Assembly (NCBI GenBank): GCA_002256765.1
Contig: NCHJ01000006.1
Span: forward strand, 1-47,643
Reading direction: 5' to 3'
DNA from: Bacteroidetes bacterium 24-39-8
GTDB lineage: Bacteria > Bacteroidota > Bacteroidia > Chitinophagales > Chitinophagaceae
DNA: 47,643 bases
Shown: positions 1,246 to 45,784 of the stretch, in pieces
How the letters are laid out: the number at the start of each line of letters is the position of its first letter
How positions within the stretch are numbered: the stretch's first letter is position 1
The notes under the pieces: generated by a model
The model's input: only the letters and a program-made list of their open reading frames with translations
Databases searched by the model: none
What the model was told of the DNA's origin: nothing
Translations under genes and position numbers: made by a program

Positions 1246-1263
1246 ATCTTAAAATTTGAATCA

Positions 1264-1392
1264 TTAGCAATTAGGTAGGTTTTTAAGATTCAACCCTAAT
1301 AACTGCCTTATTTGCTCAATCCTTAAATCCTTAGGCGCTAAAATGTTAGCTCCTACAGGAAAATAGAAATTGCCTTTATCTTTGAATCCCAT
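1264..1392 (-). CDS. Possible 42-aa small ORF or gene remnant
   Basis: An ATG-initiated frame of 42 codons between the fic promoter region and the YceI gene. The peptide (MGFKDKGNFYFPVGANILAP, then a charged helix-like stretch with IEQIRQLLGLN) has the mixed composition of a real protein and not that of AT-rich noise. An in-frame TGA lies two codons upstream of the ATG. I recognise no family. It could be a true small protein, the remnant of a longer gene, or chance. There is no other support. Confidence 0.2.
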   Translation of the reverse strand: MGFKDKGNFYFPVGANILAPKDLRIEQIRQLLGLNLKNLPNC

Positions 1393-1407
1393 AAATCATC
1401 CCATCTT

Positions 1408-2241
1408 ATGTTATTCAAACTAATCAAAGAACTCCCCCTAATGTTTGTCATTGCCCTAATTATTTGGGCTGCAGTATTATGGATTTTCTATAAAAACACT
1501 CAAAAAACCAATGGCAGTTTCTTTCAAAAACATAGATCTACCATTATTGCATTGCTATTGGCATTGGTATTAACCCTTACCGATATCTGGTTATTTGTTT
1601 CCTATATACCAACCAATTTCAAGAAAAACCCTGTAACAGATAGTACTCAGTTGAGTCCAGATCTTGCATTAGACAGCACTTGGAAGGACAGTTCACAGGT
1701 GACCGTTTCAACTGCTGCACCAAAAGACAGTTTGAAAAAAACAGATACCACTACTATTAAGCAGACGGGAAAAACCTATATCACCAAAAAAGCAAGTATC
1801 AAGTTTTATTCAAAAGGACCTGGAGAAGATATTGAGGCAACCAACTCAAACGTAGCTTGTTCTTTTAATGATGTTACAGGCAACCTAAAGTTCACAGGAT
1901 TAATTAGAGGATTCCAGTTTGAAAATGAGCTGATGCAGGAGCATTTTAATGATAAGGATTATATGCACAGTGAAAAGTATCCTAAGACTAGCTTTACGGG
2001 CAAGATTGTTTTACCTGCCAATTTTAGTATTGAAAAAGATGGCAACTATACAGTTACTGTAGAAGGACCATTAACTATTAAAGCCGTAACTAAAACCACT
2101 AAAGTATCCGGTACAATCATTGTTACAGGAAAGAAAATTTCCTTAAAAAGTATTTTCAAGATTAAAAGAAATGACTTCAATATCAATATTGATGAAGTGG
2201 CAGAAGAACTTGAAATTACCGTTGCTGCTGCATTTAATTAA
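1408..2241 (+). CDS. Membrane-anchored YceI-like domain protein
   Basis: 277-aa protein with two N-terminal hydrophobic helices (about residues 10-27 and 46-66), a Ser/Thr/Lys-rich linker (about 75-120) and a C-terminal domain (about 122-277) resembling the YceI lipocalin-like fold. The features seen are an alternating beta pattern, the DYMHSEKYPKTSF segment typical of YceI proteins ('...M.s.kyP.i.F.g') and a closing strand LEITVAAAFN. YceI proteins bind isoprenoid or other hydrophobic ligands in the periplasm. In Bacteroidota they often sit beside small electron-transfer or stress proteins, but no such partner is adjacent here. The two-helix anchor is less common than a cleaved signal peptide. 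It is convergent with the radical SAM gene, with one base between the stop codons. Confidence 0.75.
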   Translation: MLFKLIKELPLMFVIALIIWAAVLWIFYKNTQKTNGSFFQKHRSTIIALLLALVLTLTDIWLFVSYIPTNFKKNPVTDSTQLSPDLALDSTWKDSSQVTVSTAAPKDSLKKTDTTTIKQTGKTYITKKASIKFYSKGPGEDIEATNSNVACSFNDVTGNLKFTGLIRGFQFENELMQEHFNDKDYMHSEKYPKTSFTGKIVLPANFSIEKDGNYTVTVEGPLTIKAVTKTTKVSGTIIVTGKKISLKSIFKIKRNDFNINIDEVAEELEITVAAAFN

Positions 2242-2242
2242 A

Positions 2243-24767: not shown

Positions 24768-24799
24768 ATGTAAGCTTAATCTGTATAAAATTGAACTAT

Positions 24800-25834
24800 T
24801 TATTTCATATTATTGATCCATTCCTTAATCAAGTCCAAACCTTCTTGGTGTACCAAGTTTCTCCCCAATTCTGGCATTCTTTCTCCTGGCTCTTTGGTGT
24901 GCATCCGATACCATAAAATAGAGCCTTCTGCATCCCCTTTTTTAATATCTACCAATCTACCTCCTGAACCTGTTCCGGCGGCAACAGGTGGCTTATTAAT
25001 ACCCAATACGGTAGGATCTTTTTCTGATTCAGTTAAAAACAAACCCGAGGTTTGGGCGGGGCCCTCTTTTCTATGGCAGTGCGCACAGTTAATGGCCAAA
25101 TAGGCGCGTGCGCGATCATTCAAAGAACCCGTACTTGGATCATTCCAAACAGCTGTTCTTGGCAGATTGCTGGCTGGCAGGTCTTTGATCATTTTATGCT
25201 GCTTCCAATAAGTCATTTGATTTTCCTTACCTGTTTCATACGTATAATCACCATTCAACTGACTAACGGATGGACCAATGGGCATGATCTGGTCATTGCG
25301 GTTATGACAGCCCTTGCACTGGTTTTGATTGGGTACCACATATCTCACTTGCTTTGCAACACCAGACTGATCAATAAAACTAACTTGTCTATCATCTCCC
25401 GCTATTTCCAAAATGGCTTCAGATTGATCCTCTTTCCACACATAAGTGATGGCTTTCCATCCCTCAGGTTCGTGAACCAACAAACGAGTCTCCACCATAT
25501 TTTTATCAAGCCCAGGTTTTCTAAAATCTGCCGAATAATAAAAATGCTTAATCAATAAAGTTCCAGCTGGAAAATCTAAGACAGCATTAGCATTATAATC
25601 CACTGAAGCACCAGCCGGTAATTTTACAAATCGCAGTTTTTCTGCATAGTCTGTATACAAGGGCGTATTGAGTGCATAAGGCACTATCCCTTTTGAAGGT
25701 TTCAAATCAGAGAGTTTTCCATCAAAGAGTCCCCATTCTGATAATTTTTCCGGATAGCGTTTTGGTGGGGCAATCACAAAGGACCCCGCCAACACAAAAA
25801 CAAATAACCCTATGATCAATGAATAAGTCCGCAT
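24800..25834 (-). CDS. Diheme c-type cytochrome (SO2930/HNE_0200-type family)
   Basis: 344 aa from the ATG at 25834, which shares one base with the stop of the beta-helix gene (TAATG). An ATG 12 nt upstream would give a poorer signal peptide. The hydrophobic leader is MRTYSLIIGLFVFVLAGSFV. Two haem-binding CXXCH sites are present: CKGCH (about 173-177) and CAHCH (about 250-254). GLFDGKLSDLKPSKGIVPY and TPLYTDYAEKLRFVKLPAG are marks I recall for the TIGR03806-type family, which occurs beside TIGR03805 parallel beta-helix proteins exactly as here. The protein should be a periplasmic electron carrier or dehydrogenase subunit. In this setting it might accept electrons from a sugar oxidation (inference). 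The function of the family is not established to my knowledge. Confidence 0.85.
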   Translation of the reverse strand: MRTYSLIIGLFVFVLAGSFVIAPPKRYPEKLSEWGLFDGKLSDLKPSKGIVPYALNTPLYTDYAEKLRFVKLPAGASVDYNANAVLDFPAGTLLIKHFYYSADFRKPGLDKNMVETRLLVHEPEGWKAITYVWKEDQSEAILEIAGDDRQVSFIDQSGVAKQVRYVVPNQNQCKGCHNRNDQIMPIGPSVSQLNGDYTYETGKENQMTYWKQHKMIKDLPASNLPRTAVWNDPSTGSLNDRARAYLAINCAHCHRKEGPAQTSGLFLTESEKDPTVLGINKPPVAAGTGSGGRLVDIKKGDAEGSILWYRMHTKEPGERMPELGRNLVHQEGLDLIKEWINNMK

Positions 25835-27009
25835 TATTTGCCACATTTAAATAAATCGTCTGCCCTTTTCATGTCTTTAAACATATGTTCTACATCCATG
25901 CTTACAATAGTCTGTCCCTTGTTATTGATAATGCTGATACAATTGCCTGGCAAATAATTTCCATCTGCATCCAATACCTTTTTACTCTTGATCCCATCAA
26001 ATAAAATATTGGGCATATCGGCACCATATTTTTTGCCAACAATCATTCCAATAGGATCCTTACTAATAGGCGCTGTGGGTTTTCTTTCAAATAAATTATC
26101 ATGGATAGAAATATTGGAAGGAACGGGATCATACAATTTGTCTTTAAAAGGTTTTTGCATGGTATAATAACTCACAATCCCCGCACCCACAGACTGGTTA
26201 TTGATAAATTTGTTGTCATATACTTCTACACCCTTGGTAGCCAAAATCAATAACCCAGTACCCGTGGGCACATTGGCTACAATATTTCCCTTGTTAGCAA
26301 AATTTTCAAAATTATTGTCATGAATATAGTTATGGTACACTTTTACATCACCTCCGCGCTTCTGCACCAAATCTGGCAAATCAAATACCAATAAGCCACC
26401 AGCATTTTCATAGGCTTCATTGTCAAAAACCTTTGCTCTAATACTATTCTCAATTTCTATTCCTGCTACATTATGGTGTGCTATAGAGTTTTTGACAATA
26501 ATATCTTGTGATTGTCCCACATAAATGCCCGCATCAGAAGCCCCAATGGCAACGCATTTATCAATGGTTACATTGGTACACTGTACAGGATACAAACCAT
26601 ATCCGCCATTTTTAGCATTGGGAACACCCGTCCATTCTGTTTTCACTGATTTAAAAACAATGCCATTTACGTGCATGGTTTTAATGGCATCGCCCTTGGC
26701 ATCTTGTACCGTAAAGCCTTCTAATGTAATATCGGTTCCATCGCTCACGCGAATCCCTTCTGCGCCATCTGTTTGTTCTTTGAAACTTAAAATGGTTTTG
26801 TCCATTCCCTTACCGCGAATGGTAATTTTTTTCTTGCCCTCTAAAGAAAGCGTATTGGTTATAGTGAAAGTTCCTGCGGGCAATTCAATAACTGCGCCAT
26901 CTTCCGCCAAAATCATTTCTGACTGAACCTTTTTTTGAAAATCCTTTTGTGCGTGTAGCAACAAGGATAGTCCAATAAAAGCAATGAATAAACTCGTTTT
27001 TTTTAACAT
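25834..27009 (-). CDS. Parallel beta-helix repeat protein, partner of the diheme cytochrome
   Basis: 391 aa with signal peptide ending in LLHAQ. Opening strands GAVIELPAGTFTITNTL and KKITIRGKGMDKTIL are followed by right-handed beta-helix (NosD/PbH1-like) repeats: ITLEGFTVQDAKGDAIKT, VTIDKCVAIGASDAGIYVGQ, IIVKNSIAHHNVAGIEIEN, KVFDNEAYENAGGLLVFD. The fold is that of pectate lyases and carbohydrate epimerases, but I see no clear lyase active site. Linked TIGR03805/TIGR03806-type genes are known as a conserved pair; here they overlap by one base, which implies joint translation. It may bind or process a polysaccharide whose oxidation the cytochrome serves. That link is inference. Confidence 0.85.
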   Translation of the reverse strand: MLKKTSLFIAFIGLSLLLHAQKDFQKKVQSEMILAEDGAVIELPAGTFTITNTLSLEGKKKITIRGKGMDKTILSFKEQTDGAEGIRVSDGTDITLEGFTVQDAKGDAIKTMHVNGIVFKSVKTEWTGVPNAKNGGYGLYPVQCTNVTIDKCVAIGASDAGIYVGQSQDIIVKNSIAHHNVAGIEIENSIRAKVFDNEAYENAGGLLVFDLPDLVQKRGGDVKVYHNYIHDNNFENFANKGNIVANVPTGTGLLILATKGVEVYDNKFINNQSVGAGIVSYYTMQKPFKDKLYDPVPSNISIHDNLFERKPTAPISKDPIGMIVGKKYGADMPNILFDGIKSKKVLDADGNYLPGNCISIINNKGQTIVSMDVEHMFKDMKRADDLFKCGK

Positions 27010-27014
27010 GGCTA

Positions 27015-28730
27015 TTAACTTATGATAAGGGTATGTTTGAATGGGGTAAATCCTGTTAAATAAACAGTGGGCGCATCTATCATAGGAAGTGCTCCTCTTA
27101 ATTGGGTATTCTTATGTTCCAATCTTCCAGGACCAAAATGAATACTATCTGAACCACTGGAATAAACCCCCTCTTTTCCTTTTAAAAGAAAACTATTGGG
27201 ATGATTGGGCTTGGCTTCTACTCCAGTAAATTGTCCTCCTTTTCTAAAAATCAATTCCAGGGTTACGGGTACGCCCTCTGTTCCCTTCATCTCAATCTCT
27301 ATTTGCATACCCGCTTGGGCTTCGGAAAATTGAATATTGGTTTCCAGATATTGTACTTCTGATTGTTTGCGATTGCTCTTGGGCATTTTACCCAAATCGC
27401 CGTCAGGCGATATAAATTGTTTTTCAAAAGGCTGAAAATAGGGTCCTTCTAATTTTTTATTCATCACCCATACATTTCCTTTCTGAACAATATCGGTTGA
27501 TTGGAATTGTCCTTTTCCAAAAAAAGATGCTGCAATTCTCATGGCTTGTAAAACTGCATTCCCTTTGTGAAAAGTAAACCATCCAGGATTATTAGACAGT
27601 AAGGTAGCATCCCAAGGTCCCCTTCTAAATCTTACAACGCCGGAATAGGGAAATGCTTTTACATAGCTGGTAGGCAAAGGTTGTGAAGCAGGCAGTTCCT
27701 TCCATAGATTGCTATCTTCTAGCAAATAAGAAAAAGATCCTGCCAAAGATTGAATGCGGGTATTTTCAATAATCCTACACATGGCTGCAAACTCTCCGTC
27801 ATTGTCTTTTAAAGCCATATAGCGCAGTGGATAATAGTAGTTCTCCATATTTCCTATCTGCCCCTTGTCCTGTCTATTGGATGCTTCCGTTACTACTTCT
27901 CCATTTGGATGCAAATAGTAACGCATCATTTTTAAATTCTTTCTAACGGCATCATATAGTTCGGGTTTGTTCAAACCTATTGCCATGGTAATTAATACTC
28001 TATCTATGACACCAGAATAACCATAGGTACTTTTTTCCGTGTATTGACCATCTGGGTCCAAGTCAATATGTTCGGCCAACCATTGGTCAATTCTTTGTAA
28101 GTATTTTGGATTGGGAAATAATTCATTGAGTTTGGTCAATGCAGCTGAGACTACCCAACGGTGATTGGGTGTATGAATACCACCTACTATTAATGACTTT
28201 CCAGCATTCTTTAAAAATGTTTCCATCAAAGACAGTACAGGTTCAAATCCTGGCGTTCCAGAATTTTTAAGAAAGGCATAGGATTGCGCCATTCTCTTTA
28301 CCATAAAAGCGGTATCTGGTGTGGAATGAAAATTGGTATCCACCAAATCAATGGTACCATCCTCATGCTGAAATTTCAACAAGGCTTTTAAAGCCAGATT
28401 CAATTCTTTGAGTAAATCTTTGGATTGATAATAACTTGACTCAGGACAATAAACTGCTGCACAGGCTTCATTGATAAAACTACAAGTACTATGCGGATTG
28501 GGGATCTCCGTATCACTCATATACCCACCAAAATATTGGTGATTGGGATCAACCACTTTATGCTTAGCCATTCCTTTTATTCCTTGGTCATTGATCTTAA
28601 TTAATTCAATCAACCATCCTGGTTTAACATTAGGTGCTAGATACTGTTTTTGCTGGTAGGCAGCAATTCCAGCTAATGGCATGAAACATGCTGCACTAGC
28701 ACTCATTTTTACAAATCCCCTCCTATTCAT
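27015..28730 (-). CDS. Exported alpha/alpha-toroid protein, candidate polysaccharide lyase
   Basis: 571 aa from the ATG at 28730 (a TTG three codons upstream opens the same frame). The leader MNRRGFVKMSASAACFMPLA begins with RRGF, Tat-like. The first ~330 residues are helical hairpins of (alpha/alpha)-toroid type, and the last ~200 are beta-rich. In 574-aa numbering, candidate catalytic groups are DTNFHSTPDTAF (134-145), GIHTPNHRWVV (N192, H193, R194), STYGYSG (237-243) and EASNRQDKG (285-293). The Asn/His/Tyr/Arg set is what toroid polysaccharide lyases (PL8-, PL12- or heparinase-like) use. I cannot assign a PL family. Its position 23 nt after a GH105 gene, whose substrates are made by lyases, supports a lyase role. 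It could also be an (alpha/alpha) hydrolase. Confidence 0.6.
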   Translation of the reverse strand: MNRRGFVKMSASAACFMPLAGIAAYQQKQYLAPNVKPGWLIELIKINDQGIKGMAKHKVVDPNHQYFGGYMSDTEIPNPHSTCSFINEACAAVYCPESSYYQSKDLLKELNLALKALLKFQHEDGTIDLVDTNFHSTPDTAFMVKRMAQSYAFLKNSGTPGFEPVLSLMETFLKNAGKSLIVGGIHTPNHRWVVSAALTKLNELFPNPKYLQRIDQWLAEHIDLDPDGQYTEKSTYGYSGVIDRVLITMAIGLNKPELYDAVRKNLKMMRYYLHPNGEVVTEASNRQDKGQIGNMENYYYPLRYMALKDNDGEFAAMCRIIENTRIQSLAGSFSYLLEDSNLWKELPASQPLPTSYVKAFPYSGVVRFRRGPWDATLLSNNPGWFTFHKGNAVLQAMRIAASFFGKGQFQSTDIVQKGNVWVMNKKLEGPYFQPFEKQFISPDGDLGKMPKSNRKQSEVQYLETNIQFSEAQAGMQIEIEMKGTEGVPVTLELIFRKGGQFTGVEAKPNHPNSFLLKGKEGVYSSGSDSIHFGPGRLEHKNTQLRGALPMIDAPTVYLTGFTPFKHTLIIS

Positions 28731-28753
28731 AAACGTCAATTTTCTTGTTCAAA

Positions 28754-32363: not shown

Positions 32364-34292
32364 TTATTTATATTTTTCTAACAAAGACTTTCCCATTTCC
32401 TTTCCATCAATATTGAACAAAAAGTCGGTAGGTAAAGCCACTGGGTTATAATACTCCAATCTTTTTTTGATTTTGAGATCTGCTTTTACGCCCAATACCC
32501 CCGCAGCTGTAGTTACTTTTGCTTCTACTATTCCATTGGTATTACTTACTTGCACTGGAGCCGCTAAAACAGATTCACGGAATTTTTTAAAGTCTGCATC
32601 CGTCTTAATACCTTCTGCAGTCTTCCACCACATGGCAATTATGGCTTTCCCATTACTAGGATGTTGCAGGGTTAATCGCAAAGCCTGATCATGAACCATC
32701 TGAAATTTTTCTCTTGATGATTTGTAAGTAAACCCATCATTGTATAACCTTGGCTTAGCACTATCATCGGCATTGCTGATCAAATACCTAAAGGCGATGG
32801 CCACGTCTTCAAATTTGGCGAAAAAAGTATTGGAAGTGTCTAATGCTGTAGATGCGCCAATAGCAGGAACTGATATTTTTTGATTGCCCAACCAAATTTC
32901 ATTAAAATAGTTTGGCAAAATGATAGTAGAATTCACATAAGGCTTGATACAGTTGTGGTCACGCTCTCCGGCCACCAGCATGACAAATTCACCCCTATTC
33001 TGTGCCGATTGCATAAAGGGCATCAAGTGCCTAGTCTTACCCCATCCCCCATTGGAGGGATAATTGGCAGGCATTAAATGTTTCATTTTATCTCCCATGC
33101 CCGTATTAGACCAAGTACCATAATGGTCATCCCTTCCTTCCATGGAAAAAGCAATATTGGGCATTTCTGGTTTGGATGGGCTAAACAAATACATGACAAA
33201 GGATTTATCATCTGGGCTATAATATTGGTTACTAGAAGCAATAGATACTTTCTTACCAACATAGTCCACTGCATAAGTATGGGCTAAACTATCCCAACGC
33301 TGTATGCTATACCTATTGGGTTTTGTCATTAAAGCTTTTTGTTCTTTTGTTAATCCAATCTCTTGAAGTGTAGACAAACAGAGTTGGTTGAAGAGCTGAA
33401 TATTGTTGTTCTTTCTTCCAATCAAGGGATTAAAATATTTTTCTTCTAATAAATCTCTACCAAATACCCTGTTATAATCCCTGCTATGCGCTCCTCCTAA
33501 ATATCCACCCATAGGGTTATAGTGCATACTCAAGTCATTTAGAAAGAACTGAATCACGTCTTTTGTTTTAGTCCTAATGTCTTCATCTTTTGCAAAACGA
33601 TACAACAATAACAAAGACTCTAGATCAACCCCACAATATGTAGGACTATCGTATTCTCTATTGCCATAGCGAGACACATGCTTGAGCCATTGGTTAAAAT
33701 AATTTCTACCTTCTTCTAAAATAGCTGGGTCTTGATAAACTTGTGCAAATGCTACAAAATTCCAAATCTTCATCAAATAGATATTGGTATAAGAAATACG
33801 TACTTCTTGATTACGAGCACCTTTTAGACCCAAGGCAAAAATCTCATCTAATGTCTTTCTAGCGCCCACACTTAACCTATCATTAAATAATAATTTGATG
33901 GGCATACCATATTGCATACAAAATTCAATATTGTTTCCGTCTCCAATATCATTGCCTGTTTCATGCCAACCCCAAAAAATATTCCCATAACTTCTACCTG
34001 CTTTGGGATCATGAATCATTCTAGTTTGAACCAGTTTTAGTACCCATTCTACTTGTTCTGGTTTTAAAAAATTAGCATCTAAAGCATCCAACACAAAAGT
34101 GAATACGTCTCTAACACCCAGTTGCGGTGGGGTTTTCTGAACGGCTTCCCATTGTTGTTTCAACAGGGCCAATCGCGCAGCAGGATCAGGCATTGCTGGT
34201 ACTTTAAAATTGGGTTGCCCTTGCCCAATAGCAGCTATTTGTAACAAACAAATCATGGAAAAAATCAACGCCAATTGTTTCATATCAGTCAT
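32364..34292 (-). CDS. Exported helical-toroid protein, candidate polysaccharide lyase of unknown family
   Basis: 642 aa, signal peptide MKQLALIFSMICLLQIAAIG (from Met4; Met1 forms TAAATG with the GH43 stop). The first ~330 residues are helix-rich, and the rest is beta-rich with a lyase-like 'FSMEGRDDHYGTWSN' loop. Conserved-looking polar clusters are FWGWHETGNDIGDGN (107-120), SYTNIYLMKIWN (167-178), REYDSPTYCGVD (212-223) and GGAHSRDYN (266-274). Asn, Tyr, His and Arg placed this way in a toroid suggest a lyase active site. I cannot name a family; it may be one of the newer PL families or an uncharacterised one. It sits between GH43 and the GH95-like gene, and shares no obvious close similarity with the other toroid protein (27015-28730). 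Confidence 0.55.
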   Translation of the reverse strand: MTDMKQLALIFSMICLLQIAAIGQGQPNFKVPAMPDPAARLALLKQQWEAVQKTPPQLGVRDVFTFVLDALDANFLKPEQVEWVLKLVQTRMIHDPKAGRSYGNIFWGWHETGNDIGDGNNIEFCMQYGMPIKLLFNDRLSVGARKTLDEIFALGLKGARNQEVRISYTNIYLMKIWNFVAFAQVYQDPAILEEGRNYFNQWLKHVSRYGNREYDSPTYCGVDLESLLLLYRFAKDEDIRTKTKDVIQFFLNDLSMHYNPMGGYLGGAHSRDYNRVFGRDLLEEKYFNPLIGRKNNNIQLFNQLCLSTLQEIGLTKEQKALMTKPNRYSIQRWDSLAHTYAVDYVGKKVSIASSNQYYSPDDKSFVMYLFSPSKPEMPNIAFSMEGRDDHYGTWSNTGMGDKMKHLMPANYPSNGGWGKTRHLMPFMQSAQNRGEFVMLVAGERDHNCIKPYVNSTIILPNYFNEIWLGNQKISVPAIGASTALDTSNTFFAKFEDVAIAFRYLISNADDSAKPRLYNDGFTYKSSREKFQMVHDQALRLTLQHPSNGKAIIAMWWKTAEGIKTDADFKKFRESVLAAPVQVSNTNGIVEAKVTTAAGVLGVKADLKIKKRLEYYNPVALPTDFLFNIDGKEMGKSLLEKYK

Positions 34293-35876: not shown

Positions 35877-37895
35877 TTATTTAACTGGTACTAATTGGTA
35901 CATATTCACTCCATGATAAGGTATATTGGTAGAAAGAATTCCACTAAAAACACCTAGGTTTTTTTGACGCCAAAGATCTCTGAACTTCCATTTCCCCTTT
36001 AACCCTAGAGCAGCAAAATCAAATTGATAATTAATGGGAGGCTCATTGCCCATTCTAAAATAAGAAGTAGGTGTAGTGCCATAACCGGCAATATTGAATA
36101 ATCCTACGGCATAGGAACCATCTTCCAAAGGCTTTAACCAAACCTGAACCAAAGAATCATTCTTTACCAATCTTCCTGCTTTTCCTAGTGGGTCTTGGTT
36201 TACCGCTATTACTTCATCATTGGTCAAAAGATTCAATGTAAATGCATCCAAGCGTTCTACAGGGCATCCAATTAACATGGGTGCTGCCAACAAACTAAAA
36301 ATACTAATATGGCTATATTGTTCATCAGGCGTTAAGCGTGTAGGATGCAATACTGGGCCAATGGAAACGTCACCTACAATCATCATGTCTGGATCCATCC
36401 AATGTCCGTGTCCTGAATAAGGTGCCCATTTATCCAAAGAAAAACTGGTGGGGAACAAACTACTCCAACTGTCTTTGATATCTGGACCTGTTCTATACAT
36501 TTGAGATAACCTTACCCAATCCGTTACTTTTTCAAAAGGCGCATTATTGGATAAACTCAATACCATATCCCTACCTGATAACTTTAAAGCGGTGGCCATT
36601 CTTTCTGTAGATGCCACATCAATACGCCAATCATATTTCAGAAAATCAAAACCCCAAGCTGCCATTTGTCTGGCATCATTTTTCTCATATTGGTATTTAC
36701 CCATTTTGTGAAAACTCTGATTATTTTTCATAATCATTTCTCTGGTTTCACCACCCAATGGCAGATCAGTTGAAGCACCAGGATAACCTCCATAACTAGA
36801 AATATAGGGGGTAGAATACAAGCCAGCTTTTAAGCCCATGGCATGAATTTGATTCACCATCCCTTTCATGTCAGGAAATTTGTCATTGGGTTGCAATGCC
36901 GTATCTGGACCAGATCTAATGCCCTGCCAACTATCATCAATGTTAACATAAGACCAACCATGGTCTCTCAAACCCTTGCTCACCATGGCATTGGCCGATG
37001 CCAACACTTTTTCTCTGTCTAAACGCTGTTCCCAAGCATTCCATCCATTCCATCCCATGGGTGGTGTAAGTGCAATGGTATCACCTACCCTGATAATTAA
37101 TTTTTGAGCAGCCGCGCCAAATTTATTTTTAGCGTGTAATACCACTGCATAATCGCCCCGCTCTTTTACAACACCACTAATAATTCCAGTTTCTTTTGAA
37201 ACTATTAATCCTTTTGGAAGTTGATCAACACTAAACTGAATGGGTCTTTCTCCCGTGGTTGCTATAGTAAATAGAAAGGGGTTACCAGGTGTAACTCCAA
37301 ATAGTTTAGCCGAATGAATCTTGGGTTGTTTGGGACTTGGGGGTGTTAAAATATATTTCTGATCATTATTTGGAATATAGCCAGGTGCTTGACCATCTTG
37401 CATGTCAATTTGAGCATTGGCCCAGTTGCCATAAGTTCTTTTATTACCTACCCCTCCTACATGATCCGTAATTAAAAGACCCAATCTTTTTATGCCAGTT
37501 AAATCAAGATCTATGGCAACAGTAGCATCACCATGGCGCATTTCTTTTGATTCAAATAAAACTTTCCCATCGCCTACTACAAAAAAAGAAAGTGGAATAT
37601 CCTTATTACCTTGATTATCTGCCCCAACAATGGCTTGAAATCTTTTGGCTTTCCCGTCTAATAAAAAGGGGATTACACAAGGCGACTGTGCACCTAAGCC
37701 TCTTGTAAAACGCAGGTTACCCATGCGCATAGTATCTTTTCCATAATTGGTTTTAACCTGCACCGGACGCATACCTTCAGAGTAAGTGGAAATGGGCAAT
37801 TCATCCATCCAAATGGTTTTGAATGTTTGTGCTTTGGTTTGAAGCACTAGTAAAAGCAAGCAAGCAGCCAATAAATATTTTTGTAACATAGACAT
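35877..37895 (-). CDS. GH27 alpha-galactosidase-type enzyme with NPCBM and Ig-like modules (copy 1)
   Basis: 672 aa, signal peptide ending in TKAQ. Domain order: NPCBM-type carbohydrate-binding domain (about 27-165, WMDELPISTYSEGM ... RLGLLITDHVGG), a He_PIG Ig-like domain (about 200-272), then the GH27 barrel from TPPMGWNGWNAWE (277-289) and a C-terminal beta-domain. The nucleophile is D422 (FLKYDWR) and the acid/base D472 (RTGPDIKDSW). GH27 includes alpha-galactosidases, alpha-N-acetylgalactosaminidases and beta-L-arabinopyranosidases. The start overlaps the stop of the next GH27 gene by one base (TAATG). It is a paralogue of that neighbour with the same architecture, but the loop after the third barrel strand differs. 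Confidence 0.93.
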   Translation of the reverse strand: MSMLQKYLLAACLLLLVLQTKAQTFKTIWMDELPISTYSEGMRPVQVKTNYGKDTMRMGNLRFTRGLGAQSPCVIPFLLDGKAKRFQAIVGADNQGNKDIPLSFFVVGDGKVLFESKEMRHGDATVAIDLDLTGIKRLGLLITDHVGGVGNKRTYGNWANAQIDMQDGQAPGYIPNNDQKYILTPPSPKQPKIHSAKLFGVTPGNPFLFTIATTGERPIQFSVDQLPKGLIVSKETGIISGVVKERGDYAVVLHAKNKFGAAAQKLIIRVGDTIALTPPMGWNGWNAWEQRLDREKVLASANAMVSKGLRDHGWSYVNIDDSWQGIRSGPDTALQPNDKFPDMKGMVNQIHAMGLKAGLYSTPYISSYGGYPGASTDLPLGGETREMIMKNNQSFHKMGKYQYEKNDARQMAAWGFDFLKYDWRIDVASTERMATALKLSGRDMVLSLSNNAPFEKVTDWVRLSQMYRTGPDIKDSWSSLFPTSFSLDKWAPYSGHGHWMDPDMMIVGDVSIGPVLHPTRLTPDEQYSHISIFSLLAAPMLIGCPVERLDAFTLNLLTNDEVIAVNQDPLGKAGRLVKNDSLVQVWLKPLEDGSYAVGLFNIAGYGTTPTSYFRMGNEPPINYQFDFAALGLKGKWKFRDLWRQKNLGVFSGILSTNIPYHGVNMYQLVPVK

Positions 37896-39892
37896 TATTT
37901 TGTGGGGGTTAATTTAAGCATGACAACACCATGGTGACGAATGGTATTTTTGATGGTAGATTGAAAACTGCCTAATTGTTTTTGTCTCCAAACATCTCTT
38001 ACTTGCCATTTGCCCTTTAATCCTATTTTATTTAAATCCAATTCATACTGATTGGGTTGTTCATCTCCCCATCTAAAATAAGACTGTGGTGTTTTTCTAA
38101 AGCCATTGATATTAAACATACCCAATGCATAAGCCCCATTTTCTAAGGGTTTGAGCCAAACCTGTACCCCATTTTCTTCTAAGACCAATCTGCCAGATTT
38201 ACCCAAGGGGTCTTGGTCAATTTCAATGACTTCATCATTGGTCAAGAGGTTCAAGGTAAATGCATCTAATTGTTCAATAGGGCAACCAATTAACAAGGGT
38301 GCAGCCAATAAACTAAACAAACTCACATGGCTATATTGTTCATCTGCGGTTAATCTTGTTGGGTGTAATTTGGCGCCTGTAGTAACATTTCCAAGAATCA
38401 TCATGTCTGGATCATTCCAATGTCCAGGTCCACCATAAGGCCCCCATTTGTCTAGTGTAAAGGCAGAGACATATAAACTCTGCCAACTATCCCTAATATC
38501 TGGCCCCGTGCGCCATGCTTCAGCCAATCTTACCCAATCTTTCACATTGGCAAAGGGCGCTGAATTGGATAAGCTATAAATGATATCTCTTCCGGAATTG
38601 CGAATGGCTTTTGACATGGCTTCAGCAGATGCTACTTCAATTCTCCAATCATATTTTAAATAGTCTACCCCCCAGTCAGCCATTTGATTGGCGTCTTCTT
38701 TTTCAAACCGATATTTACCCGTATACCTATAAGCGCGCTTATTGGCCCTCACGGAATCAGGATAAACGCCATTTTCAAAATTGGAAGACCCACCAGGATA
38801 ACCCGCATAACTAGAAATCCAAGGGGTAGAATAAACACCTAGTTTTAAACCCATGCCATGGATATCATCAATCATCTTTTTAAAATCAGGAAATTTTTCA
38901 TTGGCTTGTATAGCATTATATTTTCCACCTCTTTGTCCCTGCCAAGCATCATCAATATTAATATAGGTCCAACCATGACTACTCAAACCCATTGATACCA
39001 TGGCTTTGGCCGATGCTACCACTTTTTCTTTATCAATTTCTCTTGCCCAAGAATTCCAACCATTCCAACCAATGGGGGGAGTTAGAGAAATAGTATCACC
39101 AATTTTAATAAGTAATGCTTTCTCTGCTTTTCCAAATTTATTGGAAGCTTTCATGGTCACTGCATAAGTTCCTTTTGCTGAAAGCACTCCAGAGATAATA
39201 CCTGTTTTTGAATCAATGCTAAGTCCCTTGGGTAAATTACTCACACTATATTGAATTGGCGCTTCCCCTGTAGCAACAACCGTGAATAAAAATGGATTGC
39301 CTGGTCTGGCACCAAATACTTTGGGAGAATTAATTCTTGGTGTTTTTGCCACTGGAGGCGTTAAAATATATTTCTCATCACTATTGGGAATATTCTGAGG
39401 TACATTATTACTCATCATAACAAATTGTGCATTGGCCCAATTGGTATGAGAGCGCTGCATTTCTTCTTTAGGCAATACCAATAGACCAAGTCGCTGAATG
39501 CCTTCTAATGAAACAGACACTTGCTTTGGAGCATCGCCCAATTTTGTTGGACCCGATTGATAGAGAATTTTCTTATCGCCAATCACAAAAAATTCTACTT
39601 CCAATTCTTTGGCTGATTTATCATCAACACCAATGGTTGCCGAAAATTGTTTGGCTTTGCCATTCATTAGAAAATATAAAATACTGGTAGACTGAACACC
39701 TACACCATGTTGGTATTTCTTTCCTGATAAATGAATACTATCTCCACTTGTACTCATTTTGGCTTGCGCCGATGGAATGGCTTCATTAAACCCGGGTAGA
39801 TTAAGCTCATCCATCCAGACCTTTGTGTTTTGTGCCTTTATCAAACCTGAAATGGATAATAAGATGGCTAATATGATGGTTCTATTTTGCAT
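37895..39892 (-). CDS. GH27 alpha-galactosidase-type enzyme with NPCBM and Ig-like modules (copy 2)
   Basis: 665 aa, signal peptide ending in LIKAQ. It shares the NPCBM, Ig-like, GH27 and C-terminal beta order of its neighbour, with many identical blocks (SDEKYILTPP, LPKGLSIDSKTGIISGV, GWNGWNSW, SLLAAPLLIGCP). The nucleophile is D415 (YLKYDWR) and the acid/base D465 (RTGPDIRDSW). The pair arose by tandem duplication and has drifted well apart, so the copies probably differ in linkage or aglycone preference. NPCBM domains bind galactose-like residues in known cases, in keeping with a galactose-type substrate. It follows the first TIM-barrel-like unknown protein by 17 nt. Confidence 0.93.
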   Translation of the reverse strand: MQNRTIILAILLSISGLIKAQNTKVWMDELNLPGFNEAIPSAQAKMSTSGDSIHLSGKKYQHGVGVQSTSILYFLMNGKAKQFSATIGVDDKSAKELEVEFFVIGDKKILYQSGPTKLGDAPKQVSVSLEGIQRLGLLVLPKEEMQRSHTNWANAQFVMMSNNVPQNIPNSDEKYILTPPVAKTPRINSPKVFGARPGNPFLFTVVATGEAPIQYSVSNLPKGLSIDSKTGIISGVLSAKGTYAVTMKASNKFGKAEKALLIKIGDTISLTPPIGWNGWNSWAREIDKEKVVASAKAMVSMGLSSHGWTYINIDDAWQGQRGGKYNAIQANEKFPDFKKMIDDIHGMGLKLGVYSTPWISSYAGYPGGSSNFENGVYPDSVRANKRAYRYTGKYRFEKEDANQMADWGVDYLKYDWRIEVASAEAMSKAIRNSGRDIIYSLSNSAPFANVKDWVRLAEAWRTGPDIRDSWQSLYVSAFTLDKWGPYGGPGHWNDPDMMILGNVTTGAKLHPTRLTADEQYSHVSLFSLLAAPLLIGCPIEQLDAFTLNLLTNDEVIEIDQDPLGKSGRLVLEENGVQVWLKPLENGAYALGMFNINGFRKTPQSYFRWGDEQPNQYELDLNKIGLKGKWQVRDVWRQKQLGSFQSTIKNTIRHHGVVMLKLTPTK

Positions 39893-39909: not shown

Positions 39910-42084
39910 TTAGTTTTGATCACTTTCAGATTGAACAATTTGTACCTGTTTAGAGGGGTCTACAATGACTATTTCTTTCAATCCCTCTTTAGTTTTAAGA
40001 TATACATCTGACTCTTTAGACAATGAAAATAGGGGCAGCCCATTTTTGAAAAGGGTTTGAAACCCAGCTGCTGCAAGCTTGTCAAGAGAACCATCAGCGG
40101 CAATCTTAATAGCTGCCAATCCTTTAAACTTTCCTGAATAGACATTGCCATTGAGTTCAAAAGAGAAGTTAGCGCTTTTGTTTTTTCTAAACCCAACCGT
40201 ATCCGTAAACACATAAGAACCATCCTCATTTTTAGTTCCTCCATCAATCGCATTTTTGCTTAGTCCCAATAGGGGCAAACTTGCAATATCAAAATCATTC
40301 ACCGTTGATAGGGTCTTTAATTTATCCATTTTTTCAGTAATGAAATTGCCGTCAAAATCATGGGTGGCGGATCCCACCAACATTAATTTACCTCCATGAC
40401 TTGCAAAATCTTCTAGGAAAGAAATGGTAGAAGATTTGGCAAATTGGGGATATAGATATACAATGGCATCAAAGACATGGCCATTCAATTCCGCTTGGTG
40501 TTGACTATTGATCCTTAATTTGCCTTCCGAAATTAAATCGGATGGCACAAGGGCATTTCTATAACCAGCTTTCCAAATTTGAACTGCTTTTTCTTCAATT
40601 TTCAAGTGGCTATTAATATCATACTTTCCCCTTGTAGACTGATTAGGATACCAATTCTGCAACGCCTCATTTCCAAAGATGATCAATAACTTCATTTCAG
40701 GAAGAGAAGGATTAAATCGGTTGAGCAATCTTGCACATCTTTCTACTTGTTTAATTTCAGCAACAGCGCTTGGTTGTTCTAATCCAATACCCCAGTTTGT
40801 GTCATTGAAAGCATGGTAAAATGTACGAACGCCGTATTGTAATTCAGTTAATGTTTTATTGGCAAAGCGTTTGATCTTATAATCATAATACATATTGTAC
40901 ATGATATTAGAAGGATAGGCCAATGCAATACCCATCCTAGTAGGTATGGGCGATTTTTCATCAGAGAATCCATTGTCTCTTGGTATTGACCACCATTTAA
41001 TACCAGTAGCCCAAATATCGTCATGTATCAAAGAATTATGGAATGTATTATGTGCTGCAATAAAGCAATTGGATCCATAGATTTTCTTACCATGGGCATA
41101 CAAGACATTTTCAACCTGCATGGCTCCCTCTCGCATAAGATCCATATAAGTATTGATGCTTTTTATTCTTTGGCCTTCTTGATCATCTGGCGCATAGCGC
41201 ATTTGCAAAAATGTCAACGCAGGATCTTGTCCTGTTCTATTTTTTAGTTTTGCACCAAAGGGTATGGAAAAAGACCTAAGTCTTAAACCTTTCAATTTAA
41301 AATGCAAAAGCCATGGGGGCATTAACCTAAAATTAGAGTACTCGTCTAACATAACACCATCAAAAGGTATGCCTGCATATCCATCTAAGAATTGCTTTAA
41401 TTGCTCAGGAGCTTCTTTGCTATGATTACTCAGAATATTGTAAATAAACTCGGCCATTACATAAGCTGTATATCCTTTATACTTAGCACCTGCATCAACT
41501 TTTACTTTAATGGTTTCACCTTCTACCTCCATTTGAAAATCTTTGGTTTCCAGTAAACTTGCTACATGGTAACCTCCCTCTTTTGTTTTCTTGAACAGAA
41601 AAACTTTATATACCTGTTGCTTAAATGATTTTCTAGACCTAACATATTTTGAATCCATAGAACAACTACCTTTTCCTGAACCATCCAATTTGGTCTCTCC
41701 TTCTGCTATGAATCTTTCCATGGAAGATTCAGGTATTTGTTTGGATTTGGATAAACGCGCACGGTAACCAACTTTAACATTGCGTAAGTGTGCCGCTTTT
41801 ACTATATTGCCAACAATAGGTAGCATTTTTTCTTGATCTTCCAAACTACAGCCTTCTCTTGCATCCAAAAAAATAAAATCAAATGGACTTTTGCTTATCA
41901 TACTATCTAAGTCTTTCAGGTATTGTCCATTTTCTAATATAGCAGGTGTCAAAAACCAATAAGCTATTTGAGGATGATGGCTATTGTCAAAATGATCTAC
42001 ATACTGAATCTTAGCTTGGGATTGAGCCCAAACCAAACTATAGACCAAGCAAAACAATGGCAATATGAATAATCCCTTTTTCAT
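39910..42084 (-). CDS. Unknown exported protein, candidate TIM-barrel glycoside hydrolase (tandem copy A)
   Basis: 724 aa, signal peptide ending in LVWAQ. I recognise no family. It aligns along its full length with the next gene. Visible parts: an early barrel-like segment (SHHPQIAYWFLTP, DFIFLDAREGCS); a small beta insertion (about 155-215); FDGVMLDEYSNF with D247-E248-Y249, an acid/base-type Glu at the end of a predicted strand; AAHNTFHNS (344-351); IKWWSIPRDNGFSDE (362-376); MYNMYY (395-400); a Rossmann/GATase-like section around residue 540-580 (FDAIVYLYPQFAKSS, HGGKLMLVGSATHDFDG); and a C-terminal beta-domain. This resembles the barrel-plus-trimerisation layout of GH42-type enzymes without matching their sequence. 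The context of ~15 glycan-active enzymes supports a glycosidase, but a nonenzymatic binding role cannot be excluded. Confidence 0.6.
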   Translation of the reverse strand: MKKGLFILPLFCLVYSLVWAQSQAKIQYVDHFDNSHHPQIAYWFLTPAILENGQYLKDLDSMISKSPFDFIFLDAREGCSLEDQEKMLPIVGNIVKAAHLRNVKVGYRARLSKSKQIPESSMERFIAEGETKLDGSGKGSCSMDSKYVRSRKSFKQQVYKVFLFKKTKEGGYHVASLLETKDFQMEVEGETIKVKVDAGAKYKGYTAYVMAEFIYNILSNHSKEAPEQLKQFLDGYAGIPFDGVMLDEYSNFRLMPPWLLHFKLKGLRLRSFSIPFGAKLKNRTGQDPALTFLQMRYAPDDQEGQRIKSINTYMDLMREGAMQVENVLYAHGKKIYGSNCFIAAHNTFHNSLIHDDIWATGIKWWSIPRDNGFSDEKSPIPTRMGIALAYPSNIMYNMYYDYKIKRFANKTLTELQYGVRTFYHAFNDTNWGIGLEQPSAVAEIKQVERCARLLNRFNPSLPEMKLLIIFGNEALQNWYPNQSTRGKYDINSHLKIEEKAVQIWKAGYRNALVPSDLISEGKLRINSQHQAELNGHVFDAIVYLYPQFAKSSTISFLEDFASHGGKLMLVGSATHDFDGNFITEKMDKLKTLSTVNDFDIASLPLLGLSKNAIDGGTKNEDGSYVFTDTVGFRKNKSANFSFELNGNVYSGKFKGLAAIKIAADGSLDKLAAAGFQTLFKNGLPLFSLSKESDVYLKTKEGLKEIVIVDPSKQVQIVQSESDQN

Positions 42085-44243
42085 TAATTCAATATTACTT
42101 TAATCATTTTGGTACTATCAGCAACAATGCAATCAAATTTGCCATTGGTATTTGTTACAAAAAGATCTGCTTCTTTTGAAAGTGAAAAAATTGGTTTGCC
42201 ATTTTTACTAAAACTACCAAATGAAGTTGCAGCCAATTTGACCAAATTACCTTTCTCATCTATTGCAATGGCAGCAAGTCCTTTATAAGTTCCCTTAAAA
42301 TGATTCCCCGCATAGTCAAATTCAAATACGGCAGCTTGGTTATTTTCTAAAGAATGCTTATTGGTAAAAGTGAATATTCCCGGACCATTGCTCACTCCGT
42401 CTACCAGTTGAATAGGCATTATGCCCAATTTAGCTACATTGGTCAGGCTATATCCATGGACAATAGCTTTAGAAGCAATTCCAGTCCAAACAGCGCTAAT
42501 ATCTTCACCCATGAATCCTTTGTCAGCGTTCCCTTCAAGCAAAAGTCTGCCGCCTAATTGAACATATTTTTGAAAGAATTGGGTTGTACTATTTTTGGCG
42601 TATTGTGGATTTAGAAAAACAATGGCATCAAATTCATATCCGTTTAAAACGGGTTTACCCTTTGCATTTAATTTAAGTCTTCCGTCTTCAATAAGATCTG
42701 TAGGTACGGCAGCATGATAATACCCATTATTCCATAACTCCAATGATTTGCGATCCATACCCAATTTATCATTGATATCATACATTCCTCTATTCTTCAC
42801 ATTGGGATACCAGTTGTAAATAGCTTCCATGCCATAGACCACTAACAATTTAACAGCTGGAAAAGGCGGATTAAATCTGTTTAATAGCCTAGCAGCGTTT
42901 TCAACTGGATTAATTTTTGCCAAAGCATAAGGAGCGTCTATTGACACCCCCCACCCCTGCATATCATTGGCTGCATGGTAATGGGTTCTTATGCCAAAGC
43001 GGAGATCATATAATGCCTTAGTCCAAATTCTATCAATCTTTGGCCCATAATACATATTGTACATGGCATTCTTTTGATAACTCATTCCCACACCTAGTTG
43101 TATTGAGGTAGAAGTTTCTTCGTCAGTATGCCCATAATCTCTTTTGATACTCCACCAACTGACCCCTGTTTGCCATACTTCATCTTTGTCAAGGTTATTA
43201 TGGAAAGTATTGTGAAGTCCTATGAATGTATTAGACCCATACATTTTCTTACCTAAATCATAGACAGCGGCTTCTAGGGGAAGTGTTGCTGATCTAAGTA
43301 ATTGCATATATTGATTAATGGCACTGATTCTAATTTCAGGTTTACCTACGGGTGCATAACGCATATCTAATAACACCCGATCCATTTGTTTTCCTGTACG
43401 CAGTTTCATTTGCTTTGCCATACCAACAGAATACAATCTTTCTCTAAATACTTCACCCGTTGAATCCATTATTTTCTGCCTAGCAATTTTCAGGTTTTTA
43501 TACTCGTCTAATCCAATACCATCAAATGGAATATCTCTATAAGCTTTAAAAGCGTTAAGCAACATCTTCATTGCCTGATCAGAAAAATTACTACAAGAAT
43601 TATAATAGTGTTGTGTTAGAATATATACTTGATAGCCTTTCAATTTTGCGCCAGCATTAATTTTCACAGATACCGTTTCCTTGGCATTGACGGCTGTAGC
43701 TTTTGAACTAATATCCTGTAAACTGCCAGCTTGATAAAATCCATCCGCTGTTTTCTTAAATGCATACACTTTAAACAACTCACTCTTGATCAGAATATTC
43801 ATTTCTCTGGCTCCAAAAGCTTGAACCTGATAATTGGCTTCTCCATTGGCATCAAGTGTTTGCTCCCCTTCCTGTATCAAGCGATCTGTGTTTTCCAAAT
43901 CTGTAAAAAAATCCCTTTTCCAAATTTGCAAACCCATTTTCAATCCCTTTTGGTGCGCATAAGCAACCATGTCTTTAAATATGGGATGCATATTGGTTGA
44001 ATCATAAAAACTATAGCCTTCCCGCTCTGTCAAAAAAACCAAAGTGTATTTGCTAAACTTGGCAAAACTGTCAATTTTGGCTTTATAGACTGTAGGTTTG
44101 TGTTGGTCAGAAGTGATAAACCAATAAGCAACTTGAGGATGGTTGCTGTTCTCAAAAGCGTTTACATATTTCACTTGTATCACCTGCGCCTGCAAACAAA
44201 ATACCAGCATTAAAAAACAACTAACTACTAAACTTTTTTTCAT
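42084..44243 (-). CDS. Unknown exported protein, candidate TIM-barrel glycoside hydrolase (tandem copy B)
   Basis: 719 aa, signal peptide ending in CLQAQ. It is a paralogue of the following gene and is joined to it by a one-base TAATG overlap. Shared sites: SNHPQVAYWFIT, FLTEREGYSFYD, PFDGIGLDEYKN (D246, E247, Y248), GLHNTFHNN (342-350), GVSWWSIKRDYGHTDEE (360-376), MYNMYY (394-399), GIRTHYHAAND (417-427), LLNRFNPPFPAVKLLVVYG, a GATase-like strand GGRLLLEGNADKGFMG, and a C-terminal beta-domain. Conservation of the DEY, HNTFH and WWSI-RD-x-G sites across a diverged pair suggests they form the active site, with E247 and one of the later acidic residues as catalytic candidates. No family assigned. 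Confidence 0.6.
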   Translation of the reverse strand: MKKSLVVSCFLMLVFCLQAQVIQVKYVNAFENSNHPQVAYWFITSDQHKPTVYKAKIDSFAKFSKYTLVFLTEREGYSFYDSTNMHPIFKDMVAYAHQKGLKMGLQIWKRDFFTDLENTDRLIQEGEQTLDANGEANYQVQAFGAREMNILIKSELFKVYAFKKTADGFYQAGSLQDISSKATAVNAKETVSVKINAGAKLKGYQVYILTQHYYNSCSNFSDQAMKMLLNAFKAYRDIPFDGIGLDEYKNLKIARQKIMDSTGEVFRERLYSVGMAKQMKLRTGKQMDRVLLDMRYAPVGKPEIRISAINQYMQLLRSATLPLEAAVYDLGKKMYGSNTFIGLHNTFHNNLDKDEVWQTGVSWWSIKRDYGHTDEETSTSIQLGVGMSYQKNAMYNMYYGPKIDRIWTKALYDLRFGIRTHYHAANDMQGWGVSIDAPYALAKINPVENAARLLNRFNPPFPAVKLLVVYGMEAIYNWYPNVKNRGMYDINDKLGMDRKSLELWNNGYYHAAVPTDLIEDGRLKLNAKGKPVLNGYEFDAIVFLNPQYAKNSTTQFFQKYVQLGGRLLLEGNADKGFMGEDISAVWTGIASKAIVHGYSLTNVAKLGIMPIQLVDGVSNGPGIFTFTNKHSLENNQAAVFEFDYAGNHFKGTYKGLAAIAIDEKGNLVKLAATSFGSFSKNGKPIFSLSKEADLFVTNTNGKFDCIVADSTKMIKVILN

Positions 44244-44248
44244 ATTCT

Positions 44249-45784
44249 CTATTTTACAAGTGCTGCTTTTGCTGCAACCATTTCCAAAACTGCTTTATCA
44301 CTCCATTCCTGTGTATGACCCGCCATGGCGGTAAAACGAATAATAGCATCCGATTTAGGGTTGCTGGTTTTGTCTAAAAATCTTTGCAGGTATCTAGTTG
44401 CTACATTGGAATACAAGCCATCCATATCACCCATCCAGATCCAAATCTTACCCTGCAATTTGGGACCAAGTGTTGACCAGTTTTTTTCCAATACTTTTTT
44501 TAAGTCATACGCTTCCCATTGCTTGGCTATTGCATGGTCAATGACACCTGTTTTTGGGTCAAACATGAGGCTTGGTAGCCCATCGACACCCTTGGGGCCA
44601 AAGACCGCATTATAGGCTCCAAACTGACCACCAGACACCCTATAGTCATTGGTTCTGCTATTGACATTCTCTCCATGAATCCAATCCTTCATAGATAAAG
44701 TAGGCTCACCATTGATGGTTCTTCTTCCTGGTTGCAAATAGCCCCAACGATTGTAAAAAATGGTACTATCATGATAGATATCTATCAAACCATAGTGTTC
44801 AAATTCTACTGGATCAGGACTATAGGACCAGCAACCATCAAAAAAATCTGAATATAAAACTTGCAAACCAAAAGATACCCATCCACCTGTTGATTTACCA
44901 GCCAGATATCGCTTTTTGGAATTGGGTTCATAATGAACTACTTCTTCTATGGCAGGAATTAACTCTTCCGTTAATGCTTTACCACAGGGACCATTATTTT
45001 CCGAATCTACTTGATAGGTATCGCCATAAGGCCCTTGCGAATCTAAGAATACATAAATTACTTGTGGTGCGTCTTTTCTAAACCACCAATTGGCAAATTC
45101 CTTATTAGCTATCATCCCATTTACTTGATCATATCTACCATTTAATCCAGGTGCTCTGTAACAAATAGGATAAGTTTTTTCAGGATGATCAAAAAAACTA
45201 TATGGCAATAAAACTGCTGCTTTTAAGTATTTAGGCTTACCAAAATAATCAGATAGATATTTACTTTTAATCCTTACTACTTTAACAAATGGATGATCAA
45301 CAATTTTTGTTGAATCATATACATTCTTTAATACTAAAGTTAAATTAACATGGTTGGATAATGCGAATGAATCAGTTTCACTATATAAATTACCCTCTAC
45401 CCTTTCATTAGCATCATCTATATTCTGTTTATACGTTACACTACAATAATACTTCTCAGAAAAATGAGGGATGAGTTTATCTAATCCAACAGCCAGCACA
45501 TTTTTATTTTTAGAATCTAATACAAAGCTCTTGCTTGATTCCCAATTCACAGGAGTTTCGCCAATTGTTGCCTCCGATTTTGGCTTTAGTTCCCGGTTGT
45601 TCTGATTGGTGAGATGCAGGATTAATCTTCCCCCTTTCATAAATAATTTTTCCACTTCAGGGGAAACAGTAACAGTTAGTTTTAAAGTAATAGGCTTTTG
45701 CGCATTAACAAATTCAATTGCGAATACGAAAATTATGATCAGTAAAAAAGAGAGGCATTTTATCATATAAATAAGCTTTTTCAT
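44249..45784 (-). CDS. Exported CE1-like / esterase-D-type carbohydrate esterase
   Basis: 511 aa. A hydrophobic leader (about residues 10-28) ends in FVNAQ. Residues about 30-165 form an N-terminal beta-rich domain (KLTVTVSPEVEKLFMKGGRL). The alpha/beta-hydrolase domain follows, with nucleophile elbow LAGKSTGGW (S298), an acidic residue in WMGDMDG and a late histidine in MAGHTQEW, in the order expected for PF00756-type esterases. Family members hydrolyse acetyl or feruloyl esters, or other esters on glycans. The substrate here is unknown; with the STN-esterase it gives the locus two unrelated deacylating enzymes. It follows the GH63-like gene by 24 nt and precedes the unknown pair by 5 nt. 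Confidence 0.75.
   Translation of the reverse strand: MKKLIYMIKCLSFLLIIIFVFAIEFVNAQKPITLKLTVTVSPEVEKLFMKGGRLILHLTNQNNRELKPKSEATIGETPVNWESSKSFVLDSKNKNVLAVGLDKLIPHFSEKYYCSVTYKQNIDDANERVEGNLYSETDSFALSNHVNLTLVLKNVYDSTKIVDHPFVKVVRIKSKYLSDYFGKPKYLKAAVLLPYSFFDHPEKTYPICYRAPGLNGRYDQVNGMIANKEFANWWFRKDAPQVIYVFLDSQGPYGDTYQVDSENNGPCGKALTEELIPAIEEVVHYEPNSKKRYLAGKSTGGWVSFGLQVLYSDFFDGCWSYSPDPVEFEHYGLIDIYHDSTIFYNRWGYLQPGRRTINGEPTLSMKDWIHGENVNSRTNDYRVSGGQFGAYNAVFGPKGVDGLPSLMFDPKTGVIDHAIAKQWEAYDLKKVLEKNWSTLGPKLQGKIWIWMGDMDGLYSNVATRYLQRFLDKTSNPKSDAIIRFTAMAGHTQEWSDKAVLEMVAAKAALVK

Follow-up and report, generated by a model that had tools for sequence, protein, structure and literature searches.

A tandem pair of apparently exported proteins in a Chitinophagaceae bacterium as candidates for a new glycosidase family

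Two adjacent genes in a stretch of 47,643 nucleotides from Bacteroidetes bacterium 24-39-8 (hereafter the window) encode full-length paralogues, P0002 and P0001. With a probability of roughly 0.55, we consider them to represent a glycosidase family that is new but built on a known scaffold, in which Glu247 of P0002 and Glu248 of P0001 would be the general acid and the second half of the mechanism would be non-standard. The paralogy, the conservation, the gene neighbours and the lack of matches to Pfam, NCBIfam and PDB sequences, on which this reading draws, are direct observations, and it further relies on a fold and on strand positions that are predicted.

According to this reading, P0002 and P0001 would be exported carbohydrate-cleaving enzymes of one undescribed family, whose scaffold would consist of a TIM barrel, a GATase-like domain B and a C-terminal beta-sandwich, as in GH42, GH106, GH112 and GH164. 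They would work alongside the GH27, GH92, GH43 and sulfatase enzymes of their gene cluster, and their substrates would be oligosaccharides of a complex, probably sulfated heteropolysaccharide. The glutamate at the end of strand 4 would donate a proton to the leaving group, and no standard covalent intermediate would be formed because strand 7 carries an Asn and not the usual Glu. Water would be activated by another invariant carboxylate, for which D374/E375 after strand 6 is the best candidate, and the outcome would be an inverting hydrolase. If this is right, a glycosidase family without a Pfam or PDB entry joins a well-studied fold, the fold would have a second way to lose its nucleophile, and the GH27 pair together with this family would be a marker for gene clusters in Chitinophagaceae that break down a glycan, probably a sulfated one.

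Two paralogous genes joined by an overlap

The two open reading frames are intact and share one base between the stop codon of the first and the start codon of the second (Table 1). Aligned end to end, P0002 and P0001 are identical at 285/721 positions (40%, 550 bits), and FDGxxLDEY, HNTFHN, WWSIxRDxG and MYNMYY are present in both. An earlier note on this DNA had described adjacent full-length paralogues with a TAATG overlap and these four shared motifs, had numbered the glutamate of the DEY motif 247 and 248, and had placed the pair between an esterase and two GH27 genes; coordinates, junction, identity and residue numbers all bear this out, with a PF00756 gene upstream and two genes carrying Melibiase_2 and NPCBM downstream. 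Read by eye, the N-termini of both proteins are hydrophobic and signal-peptide-like and end in AQ; both proteins are apparently exported. Codon comparison with the orthologues of one relative locus (L005), in which dS is near saturation, gives dN/dS of 0.09/1.73 for P0002 and 0.16/1.70 for P0001; by these values both genes look maintained, and purifying selection looks to act on them.

Table 1. Features of the tandem pair and its flanks, in window positions and protein residues
Feature	Position	Residues	Strand	Basis or remark
P0002 (group A)	42084..44243	719 aa	minus	ORF call
P0001 (group B)	39910..42084	724 aa	minus	ORF call
TAATG stop/start overlap of the P0002 and P0001 genes	42082..42086		minus	sequence
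P0002 barrel		about 22-460		AlphaFold model
P0002 inserted beta domain, strand 3 to strand 4	43593..43889	119-217	minus	AlphaFold model
P0002 GATase-like domain B	42414..42863	about 461-610	minus	AlphaFold model
P0002 C-terminal beta-sandwich		about 611-719		AlphaFold model
P0002 pair at end of barrel strand 4	43503..43508	D246-E247	minus	invariant 21/21; E247 putative general acid
P0001 equivalent pair	41341..41346	D247-E248	minus	sequence, AlphaFold model
P0002 His at end of strand 5 (HNTFHN)	43212..43214	H344	minus	invariant 21/21
P0002 pair in loop after strand 6	43119..43124	D374-E375	minus	invariant 21/21; candidate catalytic base
P0002 Asn (MYNMYY), strand 7 by element order	43056..43058	N396	minus	Asn in 21/21
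Two GH27 genes (NPCBM + Melibiase_2 + Melibiase_C)	35877..39892		minus	Pfam; downstream of P0001
Putative esterase (PF00756)	44249..45784		minus	Pfam; upstream of P0002

Searches against known families and distribution

In Pfam and NCBIfam, P0002 and P0001 match nothing above cut-off; the sub-threshold matches are NonGDSL (0.092), Seipin (0.13) and LhaT (0.024), and a Pfam scan of 21 members of the family gave ten weak families, the best being NonGDSL with an E-value of 0.0053 in 3/21. Searched with phmmer against PDB sequences, the two proteins have no match at E-values up to 10, and a 12-row family profile and the outlier P0003 have none in PDB sequences either. Matches to PF02449 (GH42) and PF17132 (GH106) are absent in both proteins at the sequence level, and no description of the family was found in the open-licence literature that was searched. 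The earlier view that the copies cannot be placed in a known family holds in Pfam and NCBIfam above cut-off and in PDB sequences, where residues 1-540 likewise match no characterised family at the level of sequence. Set against these three resources, the family is rare and unnamed.

The genome to which the window belongs (86% complete, 212 contigs) holds three copies, namely P0002, P0001 and one on contig C127. The last is a group C paralogue (locus L061, G000:C127, 6747-8930, minus strand) and adjoins five sulfatase-like genes. A genome of the same genus, G150, has three copies within about 17 kb, and since its gene order matches that of the window genome, contig C127 is suggested to be the continuation of the window's cluster. 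More widely, the family profile matched 8/244 genomes of the same taxonomic family (in G417 by the distant P0003 only), 3/154 genomes drawn from the order and 5/395 genomes of the phylum. Three of the phylum matches (G107, G227 and G286, 56 to 58 profile positions each) are short and weak and were left out of the family: the ORF of G107 has a sub-threshold GH36N match, and those of G227 and G286 cover just part of domain B. With a single sequence as query, 2/395 phylum genomes were found, while a scan of genome contigs, which spans all phyla but detects close relatives only, gave six loci with the titles Chitinophagaceae, Sphingobacteriia or Bacteroidetes. The plasmids searched contain no family member, and there is no relative among 52 pattern matches in viral contigs. 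The family has been seen only in Bacteroidota, where most of the searching was done and to which the sensitive profile run was confined.

The tree has three groups, A (P0002 type), B (P0001 type) and C (the C127 type and a related set), with P0003 on a saturated branch, L016 on another long one and several deep forks unsettled. Group B was found in two genomes, both of the window's genus. A recent duplication was rejected as the origin of P0002 and P0001, as the copies share only 40% and group B is a pair of its own in the tree. P0003 (784 aa; locus L017 of genome G417, 448-2802, minus strand) is about 23-28% identical to other members and keeps the Asp-Glu pair, the His, the Trp-Trp and the Asn. 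Used as a query, it matched 8/244 genomes of the taxonomic family, its own included, and 2/247 genomes of the phylum, and otherwise only the P0002/P0001 family; it may mark a wider unnamed superfamily.

Predicted fold and its matches

AlphaFold models were built from an 11-sequence alignment, the same set for both proteins, and reached a pLDDT of 77.6 for P0002 and 77.4 for P0001, each with a pTM of 0.78. In both models a barrel is followed by a separate alpha/beta domain (domain B, GATase-like) and by a beta-sandwich at the C-terminus. Within the barrel, strands 3 and 4 are separated by an inserted beta domain and strands 4 and 5 by helices, and the predicted layout is the three-domain one of GH42 type. 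The pLDDT is under 50 in the P0002 loops 248-261, 263-266, 345-375, 396-400, 427-433 and 474-492, and each segment of strands 6-8 is only two residues long in the P0002 model, while the P0001 model lacks these strands. The main weakness of our reading is that model confidence is low in just those loops that would form the active site.

When the P0002 model was compared with the PDB by Foldseek, GH112 (2zus) came first with an E-value of 4.6e-10 and a TMq of 0.43, followed by IaSGT of GH35 (7x87, 1.8e-9), GH42 (6ptm, 4.5e-9) and GH164 (7oms, 1.8e-6); the GH35-type 7vkw was also matched. GH112 resembles P0002 in its GH42-like architecture and differs in sequence (10% identity), and GH112 enzymes are cytosolic whereas P0002 and P0001 look exported. 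Pyruvate kinase chains (6qxl, E 2.2e-6, rank 21) and cyclodextrin glycosyltransferases are matched too, and since the former is a barrel but no glycosidase, part of the signal is that of a generic TIM barrel. One StrH chain, 2yla, which we take to be GH20, stands at rank 45 (E 3.5e-3, TMq 0.16). For the P0001 model the first match is the rhamnosidase RHA-P (6q2f, E 1.6e-11), whose place in GH106 agrees with a match at 1.5e-94 between 6q2f and a protein with PF17132 from the genome to which the window belongs; then come the GH42 entries 5e9a, 5dfa and 4oif, and also 6tvk (alpha-L-fucosidase), alpha-agarase, GH164 and three beta-amylase chains, presumably inverting GH14 enzymes, at 1.4e-4 to 2.3e-4. 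For the matches listed, query-normalised TM-scores do not exceed 0.46, identity is about 10% and the rmsd is in many cases over 8 A.

The earlier note had been reminded of GH42-type barrel enzymes and had seen a GATase-like section. Both models and the fold matches give the three-domain GH42-type arrangement, the section is a separate alpha/beta domain in each, and both were built as barrels, with strands 6-8 poorly modelled; the plain label of clan GH-A-like fares less well, and by fold and profile GH106 and GH112 are at least as near as GH42. According to PMC7105311, the acid of GH164 is carried by strand 4, and a helical subdomain separates this strand from the helix that follows; the P0002 family is like GH42 and GH164 in having three domains, a helical subdomain after strand 4 and a putative acid Glu at the end of that strand.

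Profile comparison with GH106 and GH42

A 21-row family profile was compared with a 21-row GH106 alignment, for which 24 loci had been considered and three (L086, L094 and L095) left out as no ORF reached 700 aa. It gave an E-value of 4.2e-5 and a probability of 70% over profile columns 453-646, which are those of domain B and its edges. Restricting the profile to domains B and C gave 2.8e-5; an earlier comparison with two GH106 sequences had given 0.11. With the full profile, none of nine control families from the neighbourhood did better than 0.0023, and a reversed GH106 decoy gave 0.019; with domains B and C, the controls stayed at 0.03 or above and the decoy gave 0.4. Most of the controls have shallower alignments than GH106; the sulfatase control, with a Neff of 4.6 against 4.7 for GH106, gave 0.052. 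The best of 104 single neighbour proteins scored 35.5 against 53.3 for the GH106 alignment, which sets single sequences against a deep alignment and is not like for like. The GH42 alignment gave an hhalign E-value of 0.014 with the family profile, within background, and one of eight single ORFs from GH42 loci reached 35.8.

Profiles of the barrel alone and of half-barrels gave no signal with GH106 or GH42, and residue-by-residue transfer from GH106 was given up, as the forced global alignment is meaningless; the comparison at strand 7 therefore rests on the order of elements. In the GH106 proteins of L080, L081 and L082, DSWE is preceded at a distance of about 120 residues by a second motif, of SDEP/DDEP type.

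Active site and possible mechanisms

Twelve residues of a putative pocket (D246, E247, H344, W363, W364, D374, E375, Y395, N396, Y399, R419 and H423) are identical in 21/21 aligned members, which reach down to about 24% identity to P0002 and include the distant P0003, and so are R74, N477, W478, Y479, P480 and D489. The absolute conservation of the DEY glutamate, which the earlier note had claimed from the two copies, is thus a property of all 21 members. In clan GH-A, according to PMC7105311, strand 4 bears the acid and strand 7 the nucleophile. Both models have a (beta/alpha)8 barrel, with low confidence at strands 6-8, and E247, a putative acid/base by its position, stands at the end of strand 4 in every member. 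Subject to the strand assignment, a nucleophile Glu at the end of strand 7 is absent: the putative element is AMYNMYY or variants of it, and Asp or Glu occurs at 393-399 in 0/21 rows. The earlier label of clan GH-A-like is right for the barrel and the strand 4 Glu and, if the strand assignment holds, wrong for the strand 7 carboxylate.

Most relatives by fold have what appears to be lacking here. Unlike GH42 and GH164, the P0002 family appears to have no strand 7 nucleophile Glu, and its sequence match to GH42 is at background level. In Bs164 (GH164), the active-site Arg73/Arg75 may parallel the invariant R74 after strand 2 of P0002, and Asn159-Glu160 is found where P0002 has Asp-Glu (PMC7105311). 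Plain membership of clan GH-A was rejected for want of the strand 7 Glu, and plain membership of GH106 for want of the general base. Judged from the models, the strand 7 carboxylate, which is the nucleophile of clan GH-A and the base of GH106, appears to be replaced by an invariant Asn, and the family seems to keep the acid and to have lost the partner carboxylate found in its GH42, GH164, GH35 and GH106 relatives, a loss shared by GH112. More tentatively, and at clearly less than even odds, the three-domain GH42/GH106 scaffold may have given rise to a new glycosidase family that does without the carboxylate on strand 7 and relies on a group of the substrate itself or on a relocated base together with the invariant Asn. 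If true, such a hydrolase would match the GH112 phosphorylases, which are already known to have lost the nucleophile.

The use of the substrate's own group is familiar from GH20, GH84 and GH123, which rely on substrate assistance: their strand 4 carries Asp-Glu or a similar pair, and their strand 7 lacks a carboxylate. A retaining hexosaminidase of this type, in which D246 would orient the 2-acetamido group, E247 would be the acid/base and no enzymic nucleophile would be needed, is an unlikely description of P0002 and P0001. It would fit what all 21 members have, Asp and Glu side by side where strand 4 ends and apparently no carboxylate on strand 7, an arrangement not unique to those three families, and the invariant aromatics W363, W364, Y395 and Y399 could frame the acetamide. 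The StrH chain among the P0002 fold matches points the same way, but it is a weak match, and StrH is absent among the 50 matches listed for P0001. No amino-sugar pathway is indicated by Pfam among the window proteins scanned, but GH27 includes N-acetylgalactosaminidases. The Asp-Glu pair also occurs elsewhere: GH106_dist rhamnosidases have it at the same place (PMC6828813), and the GH35 enzyme TkGlmA has Asp178-Glu179 yet keeps its nucleophile (PMC8861115). IaSGT and TkGlmA, which resemble P0002 in fold (7x87 and 7vkw), differ from it in that the nucleophile Glu is kept (E343 and E347, respectively).

Alternatively, P0002 and P0001 could be divergent metal-dependent alpha-L-rhamnosidase-like enzymes of GH106 type, nearer to GH106_dist; this we hold to be improbable, too. 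The best fold match of P0001 and the profile match of domain B speak for it, and GH106 sequences, read by eye, likewise show a beta-like stretch that separates strand 3 from strand 4. In GH106_dist (Ram106B), D458-S459 of BT_0986 becomes Asp-Glu, E538 becomes His and the base is kept (PMC6828813), so D246-E247 and H344 of P0002 parallel the first two changes, whereas the base has no parallel in P0002. Counted in the 5mqm alignment, DSWE corresponds to D458-E461 and QAEGFT contains E593, the base of BT_0986; the E593 column is Glu in 21/21 GH106 sequences, and the presumed matching strand of P0002 has no carboxylate. A further difference is that the acid E461 of BT_0986 lies three residues after D458, whereas E247 directly follows D246. 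There is also no PF17132 match, the barrel is not alignable by profile, and GH106 is absent among the 50 matches listed for the P0002 model. The likeness to GH106_dist itself comes from the published description, and none of 98 genomes yielded a GH106_dist sequence when searched with a degenerate FTDEP-type pattern.

The apparent absence of one of the two catalytic carboxylates throughout the family would suit a protein that descends from such an enzyme and now binds glycans or serves as a scaffold without catalysis, but the putative pocket, with its 12 residues from D246 to H423 unchanged over the range of identity given above, makes this most improbable. Least probable is a phosphorylase or transferase of GH112 type, whose acid would lie on the side of strand 4 and whose nucleophile would be replaced by phosphate: GH112 is the top fold match of P0002, and a phosphate near the place of the GH42 nucleophile, as PMC8106489 describes for GH112, would explain the absent strand 7 acid, but phosphorolysis would presumably be unfavourable for proteins that look exported, GH112 is absent among the 50 matches listed for the P0001 model, and PF09508 sequences were found in 0 of 118 genomes by a search that matched no control genome either.

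Gene neighbourhood

The cluster in the window includes two sulfatases, GH95, GH92, GH78, GH2, GH88/105, a GH95-like gene and GH43, besides the two GH27 genes, the esterase and a gene with MGH1-like/trehalase-type matches. Surroundings were fetched for 11 genomes with a true family member (L008, of 4 kb, was left out); GH27 genes are nearby in ten of them, the exception being G518 with its copy at a contig edge, and the esterase in eight. Ten further neighbours scanned in four other genomes include GH28, GH3, GH2, GH92, SusC and SusD, and the distant P0003 has an adjoining GH92 and no GH27 nearby. This neighbourhood supports a role of the new family in glycan degradation and does not name the glycan. 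Scans for promoters and terminators gave sites no more numerous than in shuffles.

Several other genes of the window, all on the minus strand, deserve mention. A 642-aa protein (32364-34292) has no Pfam, NCBIfam or PDB sequence match and has relatives of 61-91% identity in three other fetched loci, and a 574-aa protein (27015-28739), with no Pfam or PDB sequence match, has relatives in two. A MocA-type oxidoreductase, a 3-keto-disaccharide hydrolase (PF06439) and a cytochrome c protein are encoded at 14648-15973 and 23421-25846, which suggests an oxidative (3-keto) sugar-cleaving branch in the cluster.
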